A model generated the notes under the pieces. That model had not been told where the DNA came from and made no database searches. It saw only the letters and a program-made list of their open reading frames with translations. The position numbers were made by a program, and so were the translations under genes. A stretch of DNA of 29,980 bases from a virus. Shown here in pieces: positions 6,420 through 15,369 of the stretch. The first letter of the stretch is position 1; the number at the start of each line of letters is the position of its first letter. The stretch lies in IMG/VR virus record IMGVR_UViG_3300034375_007693, positions 1-29,980 of that record; one strand, 5' to 3'.

Positions 6420-6866
6420 ATGCCCACTCGGATTACCCACTTCTTGCATGACAGCCTTGTCACTGGCAGTCAATCGCTCGGCACATCGTTCGCTACTGCT
6501 GCCGTGCATGCGCATGACCTGCAGGCCAACCTCCCCAGCTTTCAACGACAGAAGCGCAACTACCGGGGCCTTGTGGAAGGCTTGCATCTCAAGCTCACGA
6601 GCCCAGGCGCACCCAGCGCGACGAAGGTGACGGTGCGTATCTGCGCAGATGCAGCAGGTGACGAAGTGCTCGTGCCCGACACCGAGGCAACGCTTGTCGC
6701 CGGTGTGACGACAGCCACGGTGCAGGCTGCGGCCTTCGCAGTCCGCCTGCCTCTCTTCCAGCCGCTCGCCGGACCGGGCAACGGTACGCTCTACGTGTTT
6801 GCCAAGGTCGACAACGCAGGCACTGTGCCCGTTCTGACTCAGTCTACTGTCACTTGGACGGAGTAA
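6420..6866 (+). CDS. Small beta-rich virion protein, fibre-like (148 aa)
   Basis: I do not recognise the family. After a short helical start (MPTRITHFLHDSLVTGSQ), the sequence turns into alternating hydrophobic strands with Thr, Val and Ala (KVTVRICAD, GTLYVFAKV, STVTWTE), as expected of a beta-sandwich in a tail fibre or decoration protein. There is no signal peptide and no membrane segment. The ATG has GGAGAG eight bases upstream. It is followed three bases later by another beta-rich protein and then by the lysis genes, which suggests a host-contact or tail-tip role. That role is inferred from context only. Confidence 0.62.
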   Translation: MPTRITHFLHDSLVTGSQSLGTSFATAAVHAHDLQANLPSFQRQKRNYRGLVEGLHLKLTSPGAPSATKVTVRICADAAGDEVLVPDTEATLVAGVTTATVQAAAFAVRLPLFQPLAGPGNGTLYVFAKVDNAGTVPVLTQSTVTWTE

Positions 6867-9381: not shown

Positions 9382-10221
9382 TTACTTTTGTTGGGTGTAG
9401 TAGGCAGGAACCTCGACGAGTCGTTCGCGTTGGTAGCCGGGCCAGCTGTTCAGGCGTTGGCACTCGTGGAAGGTCTCGGCAAGGTCAAAGTACAGCGACT
9501 TGACTTGCTCAAGCGTTTCGGGTCCGAGCTCGCAGGCGACGGTATCGTGCGGGGCAGAGGTCTCGGCATAGAGTGCGATGAGGCGAGCGTCATAGGTCTC
9601 GTTGACCGGTAGGCCGAACAGGGCGCAAGCTGCTTGCCAGTAGTGGTAGAGCTGCAGGTGAACGAGATAGCGCCCCATTGAGTGCGTAAGGCTGTGCTCA
9701 TCGAGTGCGCTGCCTGTCGTCTTCAGGTCGGCCACAATCAGTCCGTGCTCTTCGGAGTAGTGCAACAGGTCGAGCTTTGCCTTGCAGACACCGAAGAGGC
9801 CATCCCAGACAATCACACGCTCGACGTGGGTGCCAGGGTGCCCGAGTAGCTCGAGCAGCAGCGGGTGACGTGTCGCGGCACGAGCGACCTCGAGGGCGTT
9901 CATGTGCTCGGACTCTGTCAGGATAGCCCGACCTTCGGCAGCAACGCCGGAAGCCCACTCTTTGTAGGCCTTCGTGCGCCGGCTTCCTCCTTCCCAGATG
10001 GCGTACCGAAGCTCGAACTCCGAAGCCTCGAACGTCAGGCAATGGATAGCCGAGCCGAGTACCATGTTGATGGTAGGGGGCTTCTTTACGCTCAGGCTGT
10101 GCTGGTAGAGCTTGGGGCTCTTGACCAGCTCTTTGAGTGCGCTTGCGTTGACTGCGTCGTAGGCGAAGTAGTCCTCGTCTGTCCAGGTCGCGCACTCTTC
10201 GGGTGTAGGTAGTGTCCTCAT
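9382..10221 (-). CDS. RecE/Exo VIII-like PD-(D/E)XK exonuclease (279 aa)
   Basis: This is predicted to resect double-stranded DNA ends, giving single strands for the Erf annealing protein. The family pattern is clear. NASALKELVKSPKLY (about residues 25-39) opens the domain, GSAIH (56-60) gives a metal-ligand His, KAKLDLL (148-153) gives an Asp, and VADLKTTG (163-170) gives the D-x-K of the PDDEXK core. VHLQLYHYW (187-195) matches the Q-x-x-x-Y motif. Length fits single-domain phage RecE-like nucleases. The ATG at 10221 is chosen over a longer frame because GAGAGGACAAC precedes it and it overlaps the upstream stop by four bases. Confidence 0.85.
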   Translation of the reverse strand: MRTLPTPEECATWTDEDYFAYDAVNASALKELVKSPKLYQHSLSVKKPPTINMVLGSAIHCLTFEASEFELRYAIWEGGSRRTKAYKEWASGVAAEGRAILTESEHMNALEVARAATRHPLLLELLGHPGTHVERVIVWDGLFGVCKAKLDLLHYSEEHGLIVADLKTTGSALDEHSLTHSMGRYLVHLQLYHYWQAACALFGLPVNETYDARLIALYAETSAPHDTVACELGPETLEQVKSLYFDLAETFHECQRLNSWPGYQRERLVEVPAYYTQQK

Positions 10222-10691
10222 GTTGTCCTCTCTTTGTGGTGGGTGAGCACGGCAGCGAGTGCTTGCCATGCGTGCGACGACACACCCCGTAGGGGGCCTG
10301 CCTGTCTGTAGTGGTGGGTGTCAGGGTCAATGCCGTGCAGCTCGATGAGGCTGCGACGTATGGCACTGTCTGAGCGTCCCCAGGTCGCCTTGACTGTCCT
10401 GCGGTGTACTGGGCACACCTGCAGCCCGAGGCCGTGCGCGTACTCCCAGTAGCGCCCGAGCATGACCGTAGTGTGGATGACTGACCAGCTCGGCGGGCCT
10501 GGGTGGGTGTGCTCGATGACTACGGTCGGGCAGTCAGCTGCGAGCTCGGCGATGACTTCTCGAACTCGGGCAGAGTCGGCCTTGCCTTCGGAGAGTACGA
10601 CCTCGCCCAAGGGTGCCCCCTCCGCAACGGCATAGACCACGAGGCCGCACGTAGTCGGACCCGGATCGATGCCGATGAAGAGCGACGGCAT
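10218..10691 (-). CDS. RuvC-like Holliday junction resolvase (157 aa)
   Basis: This is an RNase H-fold nuclease predicted to cut branched DNA made during recombination-based replication or before packaging. FIGIDPGPTTCG (residues 5-16) holds the first catalytic Asp9. VVIEHTHPG (57-65) holds Glu60. The C-terminal SSHAWQALAAVLTHH (138-152) aligns with the D-A-A-D-A-L-A motif of RuvC. Here His140 occupies the first Asp position, as in Thermus RuvC, but Gln143 stands where the last catalytic Asp is expected. The ATG at 10691 shares one base with the upstream stop (TGATG) and removes 12 weakly supported residues from the longest frame. Confidence 0.82.
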   Translation of the reverse strand: MPSLFIGIDPGPTTCGLVVYAVAEGAPLGEVVLSEGKADSARVREVIAELAADCPTVVIEHTHPGPPSWSVIHTTVMLGRYWEYAHGLGLQVCPVHRRTVKATWGRSDSAIRRSLIELHGIDPDTHHYRQAGPLRGVSSHAWQALAAVLTHHKERTT

Positions 10692-11152: not shown

Positions 11153-11179
11153 GGTGTCCTCTCATGTGCTCGGTGTGGT

Positions 11180-11824
11180 TTAGACTTGCTCGGTGATGGT
11201 GGCCTTGATGATTGCGAGGCCGTTGGCGCTATCCAGCCACGCATGGCAGTTCTTGAGCTGCGAGGGACTCATAGAGCCAAGCGTCCCGCGCTTGCTCGAC
11301 TTCGCCCACGTATTGAAATTTGCAACGGTCAGTCCTGCCCCCTCGAGCTCGGCAAGGATGAGCGACGCCCAGTCCTGAGTAGCGGGCACCGTGCGCCGAG
11401 CAGGCCTGCGTTGCACCGTTCGCGAGCTTGCTGCGTTGCCGTCATCGTCCTCGACAGGAAGGCCTACGATGGACTGCAGGGAGTAGCGCCGGAGGTAGGT
11501 GATAGCCGAGCCCACTGCCTGCGCGTCTGCCTTCTTGCCCATCGGAGTTGCGACCGTAGAGCTGAGCATCTGCCCGCTGCTGTGGATGAGCACGGTCGTA
11601 AGCTGCACGAGGGACTCATCGAGGTGAGGCAGCTGCAGAACGCCTACACCGTTCTCATTAAGTACGGGAATGACTGCGCCGATGACGGCAGACAAAGACG
11701 CGAAGCTGCTGCGAAAGTGCGGGTTCTTGCTGTCCTTGACGGCTGCGCCCATAGACGCTTGAGCCTTGATAAGGGCGGTGAATAGGTCTTTTCGGTCGTC
11801 GGTAAAGCTATACAGTTCAAACAT
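11180..11824 (-). CDS. erf: Erf-family single-strand annealing protein (214 aa)
   Basis: This is a recombinase that anneals complementary single strands, as P22 Erf does when it circularises or multimerises DNA. The ERF domain fills residues 10-130: NPHFRSSFASLSAVIGAV (34-51), VLNENGVGVLQL (54-65), then the diagnostic GSAITYLRRYSLQSIVGL (105-122) and the acidic EDDDGN. The C-terminal third is a basic linker (RRPARRT) and a small helical domain. It works naturally with the nuclease two genes downstream, and SSB completes the set. The ATG at 11824 follows GAGAGGACACACC, 11 bases after the primase stop. The alternative ATG five codons upstream sits inside that ribosome site and is rejected. Confidence 0.9.
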   Translation of the reverse strand: MFELYSFTDDRKDLFTALIKAQASMGAAVKDSKNPHFRSSFASLSAVIGAVIPVLNENGVGVLQLPHLDESLVQLTTVLIHSSGQMLSSTVATPMGKKADAQAVGSAITYLRRYSLQSIVGLPVEDDDGNAASSRTVQRRPARRTVPATQDWASLILAELEGAGLTVANFNTWAKSSKRGTLGSMSPSQLKNCHAWLDSANGLAIIKATITEQV

Positions 11825-11835
11825 GGTGTGTCCTC

Positions 11836-14100
11836 TCATGTGCTTGTGGTGAGTTCAAAGTCGCTACGGGTGAGCTTCTTGATTGCAATAATGCCAGTGT
11901 CGCTGCCCTCTGCCGGGCAGTCCTTGAAATAATACGTGACCCCAGCCGAGCGATACCGCAGGAACCCTGCGCCGTGCAGTGCCGAGCTCAGCGACAGCCC
12001 GAAGCGCTGCGTGCTGAGGTTGGGGTCTACGGCACCGGCAAACTCGGCAACGGTGAACCGGTTGCGCCTGCCTCCCTTGTTTGCGTCGTGCGCCTTCGCT
12101 GCGCACTGGGAGAACCAGTCGAGGTACTGGAAGACTCCGTTTGCGCGTCGGTTCTCTCGTGTCTCTTCTTTGTTGAGCCACCACTCTTCTCCCTGGTCGT
12201 ACGCAACATACGACTCGGCAAGAAGCTGGTCACGGTACTTGCGCAGCCAGTCGAGGCCGGCAGTCTCACCCCGGCAGGGGATGACCCAGTACCTACGGCT
12301 GCCCGTTCGATCTCTGAGCACATCTTGCTCATTTGAGGTCATCGTGATGACGGTGTGCCTGCGGTATGTCCGCAGCTTGCGCCCGAAGGGAGGCCGGAAT
12401 CGGTCGATGGCAGAGGTGATGAATGCCTTGCGTGTCTCTTGGTCTGCGTTGCTGCTGCCCGCCATCTCGGCGTCTTCGTAGATGAGAGCCGAGTAGAGCT
12501 GCATGTAGCTGTCTTTGTCCTTGATATTGAAGCGGGTGTCACTGTAGAGGCCGTCCTGCCCTGGCCAGTTCGCCCACTCTCGCCACACTGTGCTCTTTCC
12601 CCAGCCTTGGGGACCGGTCAGCAACATGCAGGTGTGAAGCTGACAGCCAGGCGAGAAGAGCCGAGCCATTAGACCGACGCACCACTTCCGCGAATATGTG
12701 CGGTGAATGGGCAGGTCCTCGACATTGCAGACCTCCAGCAGCCATCGGTCAATCCTCGGGCACCCGTCCCACTTGAGCGCCTTGACGTAGTCCTGCACAG
12801 GATTGCGGGTGAACTTGCGGCAGACGTACTCGACAGCAGAGAACAGCATCTCGCGACCAATACGCCAGTGCCAATCGTAAGCGGTCTCCATGTGCGTAAC
12901 GACGCGCATCCAGACACCGTCGTCAATGACATCGTGCCCGTCCATCTCCTGTTCTCTGAAGGAATCAAACCAGAGGTTGAAGGCTGCGTCATGGGTGAGC
13001 ATGGTGTGCAGGTTCGTCATCGAGTTCTTCACCCTGCCCGGTGTGCCGTCCTTCTTTGAGGCTTCGCGACGCAGCTCGGCTAAGCCCGGTGTGCTCGCAG
13101 GTTTGTAGGTGTTCCAGTAGCTTGTGGCGTTAGGGGCGCTGTAGTAGCGCATCCTTCCGTCATTCTCGCGATGGAAGAAGCCACTGCCGACACTAGTGCC
13201 ACCGTACGGGCAGATGACCTTCAGCCGCTCGCCTGGGGCAAGGGCATCGGCGCACTGTTGCCACGTTCTGCCGTCTGCGAGTCGCTGCGTCCGAAAGTCG
13301 CAGTCTACAGACTTCGCCTGTCTCGGTCGCTTGCGGGCAGGAACCGGACTTGGGCGGGCTGTCGCCTTGTTTTCCGTGAGCTGTCCTTGCTTGCCGTGCT
13401 GCGCTTGCAGTCGGCCTACGATGTCGGAGGTGAGCACAGTATCGGAGGCCGCGACAACCTCGACAGGCTGAAGACGCCAAGCACACTTCGTGTTCATGCT
13501 GCCCGGTGCCCTTGCGAGTCGGGCGCCTACATCGTGCGTCCGGTCGTATGCCTTGTGGTAGGTCGTCAAAGGGGGATGGAAGCCCTGCGCAAGCTCGGCA
13601 GCACGTGCGTTCACCTCGTCAACAATGGCAACGTGCAGAGCCTGCAGGGCAGCCTTCTCGCTGCGCATCACCTCGTCTACAGCGTAGTGGAAGTGATAGC
13701 CCCAGCCACTACATATAGTGAGCGTCGGAGGTGCGCCCATGGCAGTCTCGAGCAGTCCTCCAACGTCTTGCAGCAGGAGGTCTAAGAAGCCCTGACGCTG
13801 CTCGTCGGGCATCTGGTACATGTGCGCCTTGCGGTCTGCAGCCTTGTCGGGCAGTGCGTTGCCTCGAGCGAGGCGAGCAGCGTCCACGAGGCCGAGCATA
13901 TCGAGGTCAAAGAACAACGAGGTCACACCCCGGCAGTTCTTGACCGAGCGCCCCCTCGCCTGAGCGTCGACGGAGCCCCGGAAGAAGTACCCGGTAGAGA
14001 TGTAGTCCCCACCGGCAAGCGACTGCTCAACGTACATGCACCCGTCTGGGGGCTCAGGCCATACCGTGCGGACACGTGCGTCAGGGTGTCGTGCGTTCAT
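11836..14100 (-). CDS. AEP primase fused to VapE/VirE-type superfamily 3 helicase (754 aa)
   Basis: This is the replication initiator or primase-helicase of the phage. The N-terminal primase of archaeo-eukaryotic type has FFDLD (metal Asp65 and Asp67), SGWGYHFHY (about 131-139) and LARAPGSMNTK (about 195-205), a match to the R-x-PG(T/S)xNxK signature. A middle segment (about 265-345) has CPYGG and may be a zinc or DNA-binding part. The VapE/VirE ATPase follows: NPVQDYVKALKWDG (about 433-446), Walker A GPQGWGKST (496-504), Walker B LIYEDAEM (539-546), MTSNEQDVLRDRTGSRRYW (587-605) with the sensor Asn and arginine residues. The ATG has AAGGA upstream and overlaps the previous gene by 20 bp. No polymerase gene accompanies it. 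Confidence 0.9.
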   Translation of the reverse strand: MNARHPDARVRTVWPEPPDGCMYVEQSLAGGDYISTGYFFRGSVDAQARGRSVKNCRGVTSLFFDLDMLGLVDAARLARGNALPDKAADRKAHMYQMPDEQRQGFLDLLLQDVGGLLETAMGAPPTLTICSGWGYHFHYAVDEVMRSEKAALQALHVAIVDEVNARAAELAQGFHPPLTTYHKAYDRTHDVGARLARAPGSMNTKCAWRLQPVEVVAASDTVLTSDIVGRLQAQHGKQGQLTENKATARPSPVPARKRPRQAKSVDCDFRTQRLADGRTWQQCADALAPGERLKVICPYGGTSVGSGFFHRENDGRMRYYSAPNATSYWNTYKPASTPGLAELRREASKKDGTPGRVKNSMTNLHTMLTHDAAFNLWFDSFREQEMDGHDVIDDGVWMRVVTHMETAYDWHWRIGREMLFSAVEYVCRKFTRNPVQDYVKALKWDGCPRIDRWLLEVCNVEDLPIHRTYSRKWCVGLMARLFSPGCQLHTCMLLTGPQGWGKSTVWREWANWPGQDGLYSDTRFNIKDKDSYMQLYSALIYEDAEMAGSSNADQETRKAFITSAIDRFRPPFGRKLRTYRRHTVITMTSNEQDVLRDRTGSRRYWVIPCRGETAGLDWLRKYRDQLLAESYVAYDQGEEWWLNKEETRENRRANGVFQYLDWFSQCAAKAHDANKGGRRNRFTVAEFAGAVDPNLSTQRFGLSLSSALHGAGFLRYRSAGVTYYFKDCPAEGSDTGIIAIKKLTRSDFELTTST

Positions 14101-14320
14101 CGTGCAGTTCCTTTGCTTTGAGCATGAATGCAGTAGCGGCTTCGCAAGCCTCTCGGCGAGTCGGACGGAGCCCTACCTCTACGAGGTCGCCGCCCATCTT
14201 GTTGACGCGCCACGCCCAGTACTCGCCCGAGGGCTGCACGTCTGCGTCGAGATACGGTTCTCGAAGGGTGCGCTGCAGCCCGATGCCGAAGACGTACCAG
14301 GGGCTGAGTCGAGGTCTCAC
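14081..14320 (-). CDS. Small early protein, paralogue of the 50-aa gene upstream (79 aa)
   Basis: The function is unknown. The GTG start at 14320 overlaps the previous stop (GTGA) and gives an N-terminus (V-RPRLSPWYVFGIGLQ) that matches the 50-aa protein encoded at 14933-15085. That match fixes the start better than any ATG would. Residues about 8-28 are encoded by a 67-bp sequence that is repeated exactly in the paralogue. The rest (GEYWAWRVNKMGGDLVEVGL, then a helix rich in Ala, Glu and Lys) looks like a compact beta-beta-alpha fold. Its 3' end overlaps the primase start by 20 bp. Confidence 0.72.
   Translation of the reverse strand: MRPRLSPWYVFGIGLQRTLREPYLDADVQPSGEYWAWRVNKMGGDLVEVGLRPTRREACEAATAFMLKAKELHDERTTP
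14236..14302. repeat. 67-bp exact direct repeat, copy 1
   Basis: This sequence is identical base for base to 15001-15067. It lies within the 79-aa gene and encodes the same residues in the same frame as copy 2 (PWYVFGIGLQRTLREPYLDA and two more). Codons just upstream in both genes encode nearly the same residues but differ at several synonymous positions, so the exact identity ends abruptly. That is the pattern left by gene conversion or a very recent partial duplication. Confidence 0.95.
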
Positions 14321-14808
14321 GATGCCCTCCGTTGGCGTTGCAGATTGTGCCACACGTCTCGCACCGCCCACCGGCTGAGCCGAAACGGCATCTCATCGTC
14401 TGCGAGGATAGAGCGGTAGACTTCGCCGGGGCTCATGTCCGGCCAGTTCTCGACATAGATAGCAACCTCTTGCTCGATGACTGCGCGACGCTGACCGCAA
14501 CCGGGCAAGATGCCGAGCTTGCGACGAAACCACCGGACAGAATCGGCCTTTACGCCCTCCCGGCGCGCAATCTCACGATCGCTTTGGTACGGATTCCGGG
14601 CGATAAGCTCGCGAAATCTCGTGGTAAGGGTCGTCTCTTCGGGCAGCATCCCATTGTCAGACCAACGCTTGTAAACCGCCGCCGGACGAATCCCGAACTC
14701 ATCCCCTGCATCCTTGAGAATGCCTTTCCTCACCTCTTTGTCGGTCTCCGCATAGTAGCGGTCTCGCCACACTGCGGTCTGTGCAAGCTCTTCAGCTTTG
14801 AGGGTCAT
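14317..14808 (-). CDS. Multi-helix-turn-helix DNA-binding protein (163 aa)
   Basis: This is a probable phage transcription regulator or DNA-binding replication factor. Three HTH-like units can be seen: FGIRPAAVYKRWSDNG (about residues 37-52), SDREIARREGVKADSVRWFRRKLGI (about 75-99, the clearest, resembling a resolvase/sigma-type HTH), and SPGEVYRSILADDEMPFRLS to RDVWHNL (about 125-155). Basic residues cluster in the recognition helices and at the end (QRQRRAS). The ATG at 14808 overlaps the stop of the 43-aa gene (ATGA). The longer frame from 14943 is rejected because its extra N-terminus is low-complexity Arg-rich and covers two other coupled genes. It is a candidate binder of the repeated operators at 16083-16336, though this is not shown by the sequence. 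Confidence 0.72.
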   Translation of the reverse strand: MTLKAEELAQTAVWRDRYYAETDKEVRKGILKDAGDEFGIRPAAVYKRWSDNGMLPEETTLTTRFRELIARNPYQSDREIARREGVKADSVRWFRRKLGILPGCGQRRAVIEQEVAIYVENWPDMSPGEVYRSILADDEMPFRLSRWAVRDVWHNLQRQRRAS

Positions 14809-14936
14809 CCGACCACCCCAAGCTCTGCGGCGCAGTCCCAGTAGCCGGCCTCGACTCCTGCGCGGTGCCCGGAGTCGTAGCTGCACCGGGCGAGCGTCAG
14901 CGCCATGGCGACGAGTAGCCAGTGTGAGCGGGTCAC
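14805..14936 (-). CDS. Tiny coupled membrane or lipoprotein-like peptide (43 aa)
   Basis: A GTG start at 14936 overlaps the previous stop (GTGA), and the TGA overlaps the next ATG (ATGA), so it is coupled at both ends. The peptide begins MTRSHWLLVAMALTLARCSYD: a positive start, a hydrophobic core of about ten residues, then LARC-S, which has a Cys where a lipoprotein signal would place it (the preceding Arg is atypical). The remainder is short and polar with a second Cys. It could be an inner-membrane peptide that alters host physiology. Function is unknown, and the coupling is the main support for it being real. Confidence 0.58.
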   Translation of the reverse strand: MTRSHWLLVAMALTLARCSYDSGHRAGVEAGYWDCAAELGVVG

Positions 14937-15085
14937 GAGTCACCCCTACGCAGAGACCACGCGGGGCACGGCGGGGCGTCTCGCGGCGGCATGGACGGGG
15001 GCACGTCTGCGTCGAGATACGGTTCTCGAAGGGTGCGCTGCAGCCCGATGCCGAAGACGTACCAGGGAGTCAGGCGAGGCCTCAT
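14933..15085 (-). CDS. Short paralogue of the 79-aa protein (50 aa)
   Basis: The ATG at 15085 overlaps the previous stop (ATGA), and its own TGA overlaps the GTG of the 43-aa gene. The first 28 residues (MRPRLTPWYVFGIGLQ and on to DADV) match the 79-aa protein, and 22 of the codons are identical to it through the 67-bp exact repeat. After DVPPS the sequence diverges into a Pro-rich tail with one Cys (ending SLRRGDS), so it lacks the conserved-looking second half of its paralogue. It may be a truncated, decaying copy or a product with a private function. Confidence 0.65.
   Translation of the reverse strand: MRPRLTPWYVFGIGLQRTLREPYLDADVPPSMPPRDAPPCPAWSLRRGDS
15001..15067. repeat. 67-bp exact direct repeat, copy 2
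   Basis: This is identical to 14236-14302 with the same orientation and reading frame, and lies inside the 50-aa gene. The two copies are 765 bp apart start to start. Homologous recombination between them would delete three small genes (the 50-aa, 43-aa and HTH genes) and fuse the N-terminus of one paralogue to the body of the other. Confidence 0.95.
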
Positions 15086-15369
15086 CCGACTGCCCCCAGC
15101 CAGTCCACTTCCGTGAGACTGCCGATCTCGTTTCCCTCGTCCTGCTCCTGGTTGTACTCGTAGCAGAGGAACCCGTCGATCGCGTCGATCTTCTCAGCCA
15201 GGGCCCCAAGCATCTTGTCGAGGGACTTGATCGCCTTGTCGCGGTCATCGCCAGCCTCGCCGATGGTCCTGACCATATCCTCGAGCTTGCTCAGATCTGC
15301 GGACACGCCAGCAGTCGAGGGCGCTGCTTTGGCGGCAGGGGCCTTACGGCCGGGTCGACGACGGGTCAT
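15082..15369 (-). CDS. Basic-tailed coiled-coil early protein (95 aa)
   Basis: The N-terminal 20 residues are a basic, Ala/Pro-rich tail (MTRRRPGRKAPAAKAAPS), likely disordered and able to bind nucleic acid. Residues about 25-65 form an amphipathic helix (DLSKLEDMVRTIGEAGDDRDKAIKSL and on) suited to oligomerisation. The C-terminus is acidic (NQEQDEGNEIGS). Both ends overlap neighbours by ATGA. No family is recognised. The charge layout suggests a small nucleoid-like or adaptor protein. Confidence 0.65.
   Translation of the reverse strand: MTRRRPGRKAPAAKAAPSTAGVSADLSKLEDMVRTIGEAGDDRDKAIKSLDKMLGALAEKIDAIDGFLCYEYNQEQDEGNEIGSLTEVDWLGAVG

Follow-up and report, generated by a model that had tools for sequence, protein, structure and literature searches.

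The nearest published case to the one described here is that of the mycobacteriophage Island3, in which the neighbouring small genes 67 and 68 are nearly identical over about 60 bp at their 3' ends. One of these two genes is otherwise devoid of homologues, Brujita possesses a single recombinant copy, and the situation has been explained by recombination between sequences of about 50 bp (PMC3029335). Conserved boundary sequences at phage gene junctions are discussed in the same work. A second point of comparison is given by the relaxed homologous recombination of the Rad52-like phage recombinase systems (Red-beta, RecT, Erf): on DNA that is 78% identical, the efficiency of an Erf/exonuclease pair is about that of lambda Red (PMC3945230).

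The window analyzed in this study, i.e. the whole stretch of 29,980 nucleotides of the viral record IMGVR_UViG_3300034375_007693, harbors a repeat of the same kind as that of Island3 genes 67/68, namely a short stretch that recurs identically at a second place, its flanks being unrelated or diverged. The features concerned are the following:

14236-14302, minus strand: first copy of the 67-bp repeat, codons 7-28 of the 79-aa ORF, encoding the predicted N-terminal helix and the start of the first strand.
15001-15067, minus strand: second copy of the 67-bp repeat, codons 7-28 of the 50-aa ORF.
14084-14320, minus strand: 79-aa ORF with a GTG start, full-length representative of a family of small early genes, located between the HTH and VapE genes, a placement unseen in relatives.
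14936-15085, minus strand: 50-aa ORF with an ATG start, truncated hybrid made of a start like that of the relative L025, the 67-bp repeat and an unrelated tail.

In Island3 the shared sequence occupies the 3' ends of adjacent genes, whereas here it is located near the 5' ends of genes that are 765 bp apart. Moreover, and unlike in Island3, the 5' flanks of the two window copies are homologous and diverged, which points to an exchange between older copies.

The two copies constitute a maximal exact direct repeat of 67 bp with an offset of 765 bp, exactly where an earlier note on this DNA had reported a perfect duplication encoding the same 22 in-frame codons. Both are read in the same frame and cover codons 7-28 plus one base of the two minus-strand ORFs. 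Besides the 127-bp terminal repeat of the circular contig, this is the only exact direct repeat of at least 20 nt in the window when non-overlapping copies are counted. Its expectation by chance from base composition is about 1e-30, and the probability of finding the same codon choice in all 22 codons is ~3e-9, assuming that codons for the same residues are chosen independently. The identity does end as sharply as had been claimed, since 6 of 18 nt differ, mostly synonymously, between codons 1-6 of the two ORFs against 0 of 67 within the repeat (Fisher p = 4e-5). On the other hand, the description of the flanks as encoding nearly the same residues with synonymous differences is valid for codons 1-6 but not past codon 28, where the two proteins are unrelated; the flank similarity thus concerns the 5' side of the repeat only.

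The surrounding genes comprise in particular an Erf-family gene and an exonuclease gene, as in the Rad52-like recombinase systems mentioned above:

15085-15369, minus strand: 95-aa acquired gene, similar to that of the phage contig L086, with an end grafted from a 43-aa-type gene.
14808-14936, minus strand: 43-aa gene with a short hydrophobic N-terminus, directly followed by the HTH gene here and by the 79-aa family gene in L025.
14320-14808, minus strand: 163-aa gene, called HTH in the earlier note, with a weak Pfam HTH_24 match only (E 0.16).
11839-14100, minus strand: VapE-domain primase/helicase of 754 aa, used as synteny anchor.
11183-11839, minus strand: Erf-family single-strand annealing protein (ERF PF04404, E 5.6e-23), candidate agent of the exchange.
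9385-10269, minus strand: exonuclease VIII-like / DUF3799 PDDEXK exonuclease (DUF3799 PF12684, E 2e-15; phrog_412), candidate partner of Erf.

As in temperate-phage mosaics (PMC3945230), the pieces exchanged are short, and diverged homology may border them. However, those mosaics were formed between phages or with prophages and the recombination activity was assayed, whereas the exchange proposed here would be between two copies that now lie in one genome. A likeness to boundary sequences also exists, since the early-region repeats of this phage clade often span gene starts or ends (contigs L009, L015 and L025), but the 67-bp repeat resides inside coding sequence, from codon 7 to codon 28, and not at a junction.

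Relatives were gathered by searching with the VapE-type primase (18 loci) and the large terminase (55 loci). A single full-length gene represents the 79-aa family in at least six phages related to this one (L025, L010, L011, L013, L033 and L006/L038; 47-66% protein identity). L025 comes from 3300032277, with a terminase 96% identical to that of the window, and L006/L038 is a contig of 3300025759. In these relatives the gene is positioned right after the 43-aa gene or a few hundred bases on and precedes the HTH gene where the contig reaches it, with VapE after HTH where present. The 163-aa gene displays 26-35% identity to its positional homologues, and the 43-aa gene is also found in another phage context, L094. 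The order on the minus strand of the window is 62-aa, 95-aa, 50-aa, 43-aa, HTH, 79-aa and VapE. Given the single copy located between the 43-aa and HTH genes in relatives, the intact copy of the window has been displaced past HTH, and the 50-aa ORF represents a second, truncated copy. In L015, the family member is chimeric, with an N-terminus taken from another small family, and more distant relatives conserve only the protein. We found no parent sequence in which the 67-bp allele is present only once, and no DNA-level relative of the 8.9-16.9 kb region was detected among sequenced phages. In bacterial genomes, only two relatives of the terminase large subunit TerL were found (67% and 62%), both without the small genes. 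They are L090 (CP070680.1), assembled as a WOR-3 bacterium, and L091 (CP070815.1), from a Gemmatimonadota bacterium; L090 also carries a VapE relative (31%) near its TerL relative. Both could possibly be prophages and give a hint at hosts.

Comparison with L025 and L086, the latter being part of an unrelated 78-kb phage contig, allowed us to read the joints around the second copy. Following the minus strand, the two genes before the 95-aa gene are 91% identical to L025 at the DNA level up to 15364, and the 95-aa gene is then 85% identical to L086 from 15297 to 15100. The L086 homologue ends with DW, one more codon and a stop. At 15100 this end gives way to CTGGGGGCAGTCGG, the end of the L025 43-aa gene, so that the last five codons of the 95-aa gene (LGAVG) and its stop match the end of that gene. 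Neighbours of differing ancestry, an L086-like gene and a 43-aa-type graft, are therefore joined at a gene end. The other homologues of the 95-aa gene that we found are in much larger phage contigs (75-108 kb). The stretch that follows reads:

15068-15100, minus strand: 33 nt identical to L025 (33/33), comprising the end of a 43-aa-type gene and the first codons of a 79-aa-type gene.

These 33 nt correspond to the start of the 50-aa ORF and the 14 nt upstream. After 15068, the next 67 bp are those of the other window copy, yet they match L025 at 57 of 67 positions, the 10 differences including five codons changed synonymously. This perfect match followed by a switch at the repeat edge indicates that the start of the 50-aa ORF is an orthologous piece, followed by sequence common with the displaced copy. 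The tail of the ORF (15000-14945) gave no match, an exact 20-mer search for its source retrieving the same phage only, and from 14944 the 43-aa gene is L025-like again (89%). As for the single L025 copy, its upstream flank is that of the 50-aa ORF (33/33), and its downstream part shows homology to the 79-aa gene, though at a DNA identity of only 59%.

Altogether, we consider it probable that the identity of the two 67-bp stretches was left by a recent recombination or gene conversion event in which two diverged copies of a single small early gene took part. This reading is strengthened by the single-copy gene of the relatives, the sharp mosaic joint on the 5' border of the repeat, the chimeric neighbours and the repeats clustered at gene junctions. 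The comparison with related phages that the earlier note had advised, with its single full-length copy and its 57 matches out of 67 in L025, goes in the same direction. The gene conversion then proposed between older paralogues is retained in so far as older copies did recombine; the two genes are however not equal paralogues, the 50-aa ORF being a truncated hybrid. Within this phage clade, the operon is remodeled through the exchange of small genes and of gene ends.

With regard to the mechanism, the 67 bp would have been moved by a homology-driven exchange between the diverged copies, either as a gene conversion or through a crossover that may also have placed the 43-aa/HTH segment between them. 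Single-strand annealing by the phage Erf protein with its exonuclease would be the probable route, and both proteins are plausible agents on the basis of the systems described above. Concerning the direction, the 79-aa gene has in common with L025 13 of 18 synonymous codons inside the 67 bp and 10 of 23 outside (p = 0.11), and the 50-aa ORF differs from L025 at 0 of 33 positions before the repeat and 10 of 67 within it (p = 0.03). Taken together, the bases 15100-15001 show 90% identity to L025, which corresponds to the orthologue background and would lean towards a transfer into the 79-aa gene, although the codon test (p = 0.11) does not decide the direction.

The 79-aa protein gave no significant match in Pfam or PHROG and no relative among 50,697 phage records. 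Its predicted structure consists of a helix, three strands and a helix (pLDDT 73), and a comparison of this model with the PDB gave no match at E <= 0.001. Of the 79-aa fold, the repeat covers the first helix and a portion of the first strand, and the 50-aa product is thus unlikely, judging from the model, to adopt it. The 50-aa ORF shares four bases with each neighbour, its ATG overlapping the stop of the 95-aa gene and its own stop the GTG of the 43-aa gene. We propose that this ORF is probably a by-product whose frame these overlaps keep open, and that it may be retained because it bridges the coupled translation of its neighbours. If the 765 bp between the two copies were deleted, its start would be fused to the rest of the 79-aa gene, giving one full-length gene with an ATG start. 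The prediction that such a recombination would delete the 50-aa, 43-aa and HTH genes is consequently right for the last two, but the 50-aa ORF would not simply be lost.

This case offers a clear and recent instance of intragenic exchange, here between copies of a small phage gene, and its joints can be read to the base against relatives. Such cases illustrate how short homology at or inside small genes remodels early operons and yields hybrid ORFs. It belongs to ordinary phage mosaicism and reveals no new system.

One could go further and assume that the early operon is a standing shuffling zone, in which the phage's own annealing recombinase would make and spread short repeats of gene starts and ends and thereby give rise, time and again, to new chimeric small proteins, the 50-aa hybrid being retained either for a function of its product or for bridging translation. 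We regard this broader proposal as doubtful. The clustering of repeats, for its part, speaks for the main reading given above: in about 36 contigs of the clade, we counted seven exact non-tandem direct repeats of at least 18 nt in 89.6 kb of early region versus none in 255 kb elsewhere, these related contigs not being independent. The early region was defined as extending from terminase to VapE; where one anchor was lacking, its limit was set at the end of the contig or at 3.2 kb upstream of VapE. Two of the seven repeats (L018 and L064) look intergenic. Others occupy gene starts or ends: a ribosome-binding site and ATG in L009, the end of the 62-aa gene recurring at the end of the next gene in L015, and in L025 both the start of two small genes and the end of two genes. 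In the latter contig, the two small genes open with the same 37 nt (1466-1502 and 1852-1888; MTALQTPAP), a second duplicated gene start. We also noticed in the window a 24-nt repeat (88%; 11154-11177 and 11828-11851) that contains GAGAGGACAC at the starts of the Erf gene and of the next gene, and a comparable GAGAGGACACC repeat ahead of two ATGs in L009.

Another hypothesis, which we judge unlikely, is that of a simple recent partial duplication, where a piece would have been copied to a new site by template switch or slippage. This new site would have held no older homologue, and the similar six upstream codons would come from the insertion site itself. The unrelated 3' sides are what one would expect if only a piece had been copied, the 50-aa ORF ends in a tail foreign to the 79-aa gene family, and replication-based copying needs little homology. 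However, the 5' sides of both copies are homologous in protein and have diverged synonymously, and the identity of the 50-aa start to the intact L025 orthologue implies that a resident homologous copy existed at the edge of the repeat. We therefore favor recombination between two diverged copies.

One would also wonder whether selection could be keeping the 67 bp identical because they act as an RNA or DNA element, for instance an operator, an origin, a recombination site or a translational coupler, as the earlier note had envisaged. An inverted repeat, TCGAGA-N6-TCTCGA, is indeed found inside the stretch, which sits near gene starts, and the minus strand folds slightly better than shuffled sequences (z -1.47). 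Nevertheless, folding of the other strand shows no gain over shuffles, conservation in more distant relatives is limited to the protein, and the 67-bp identity is confined to one phage, in three assemblies. The synonymous changes in L025 and the unremarkable folds argue against such an element, to which we would attribute a very low probability, and the repeat looks devoid of any evident function of its own.

An assembly artefact, about which the earlier note had expressed concern, is hardly conceivable: although repeats are open to mis-resolution, both copies are present in two IMG/VR contigs from other metagenomes, 3300032274_000558 (4,882 bp, 100% identical to the window) and 3300007345_006867 (22 kb, 99.97% identical in the stretches compared, with strain differences falling elsewhere, at 6819, 11794, 11826-11827 and 22146), and the 127-bp terminal repeat suggests an assembly word of 127 bases, longer than the repeat.

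Two further features of the window deserve mention. A 15-bp tandem repeat in three copies is located at the start of the 1438-aa gene (2079-2128) and encodes repeated RRELA units. Finally, the segment 16161-16342, which is intergenic between divergent gene blocks, contains four ACCCTGCACT sites in alternating orientation (16167+, 16203-, 16291+ and 16327-, with a spacing of 36/88/36) that flank an A-rich stretch. The same arrangement and spacing are observed in L025 (2496+, 2532-, 2620+, 2656-) and, within one base, in L038 (1385+, 1421-, 1510+, 1546-). These sites look like paired operators or an origin.
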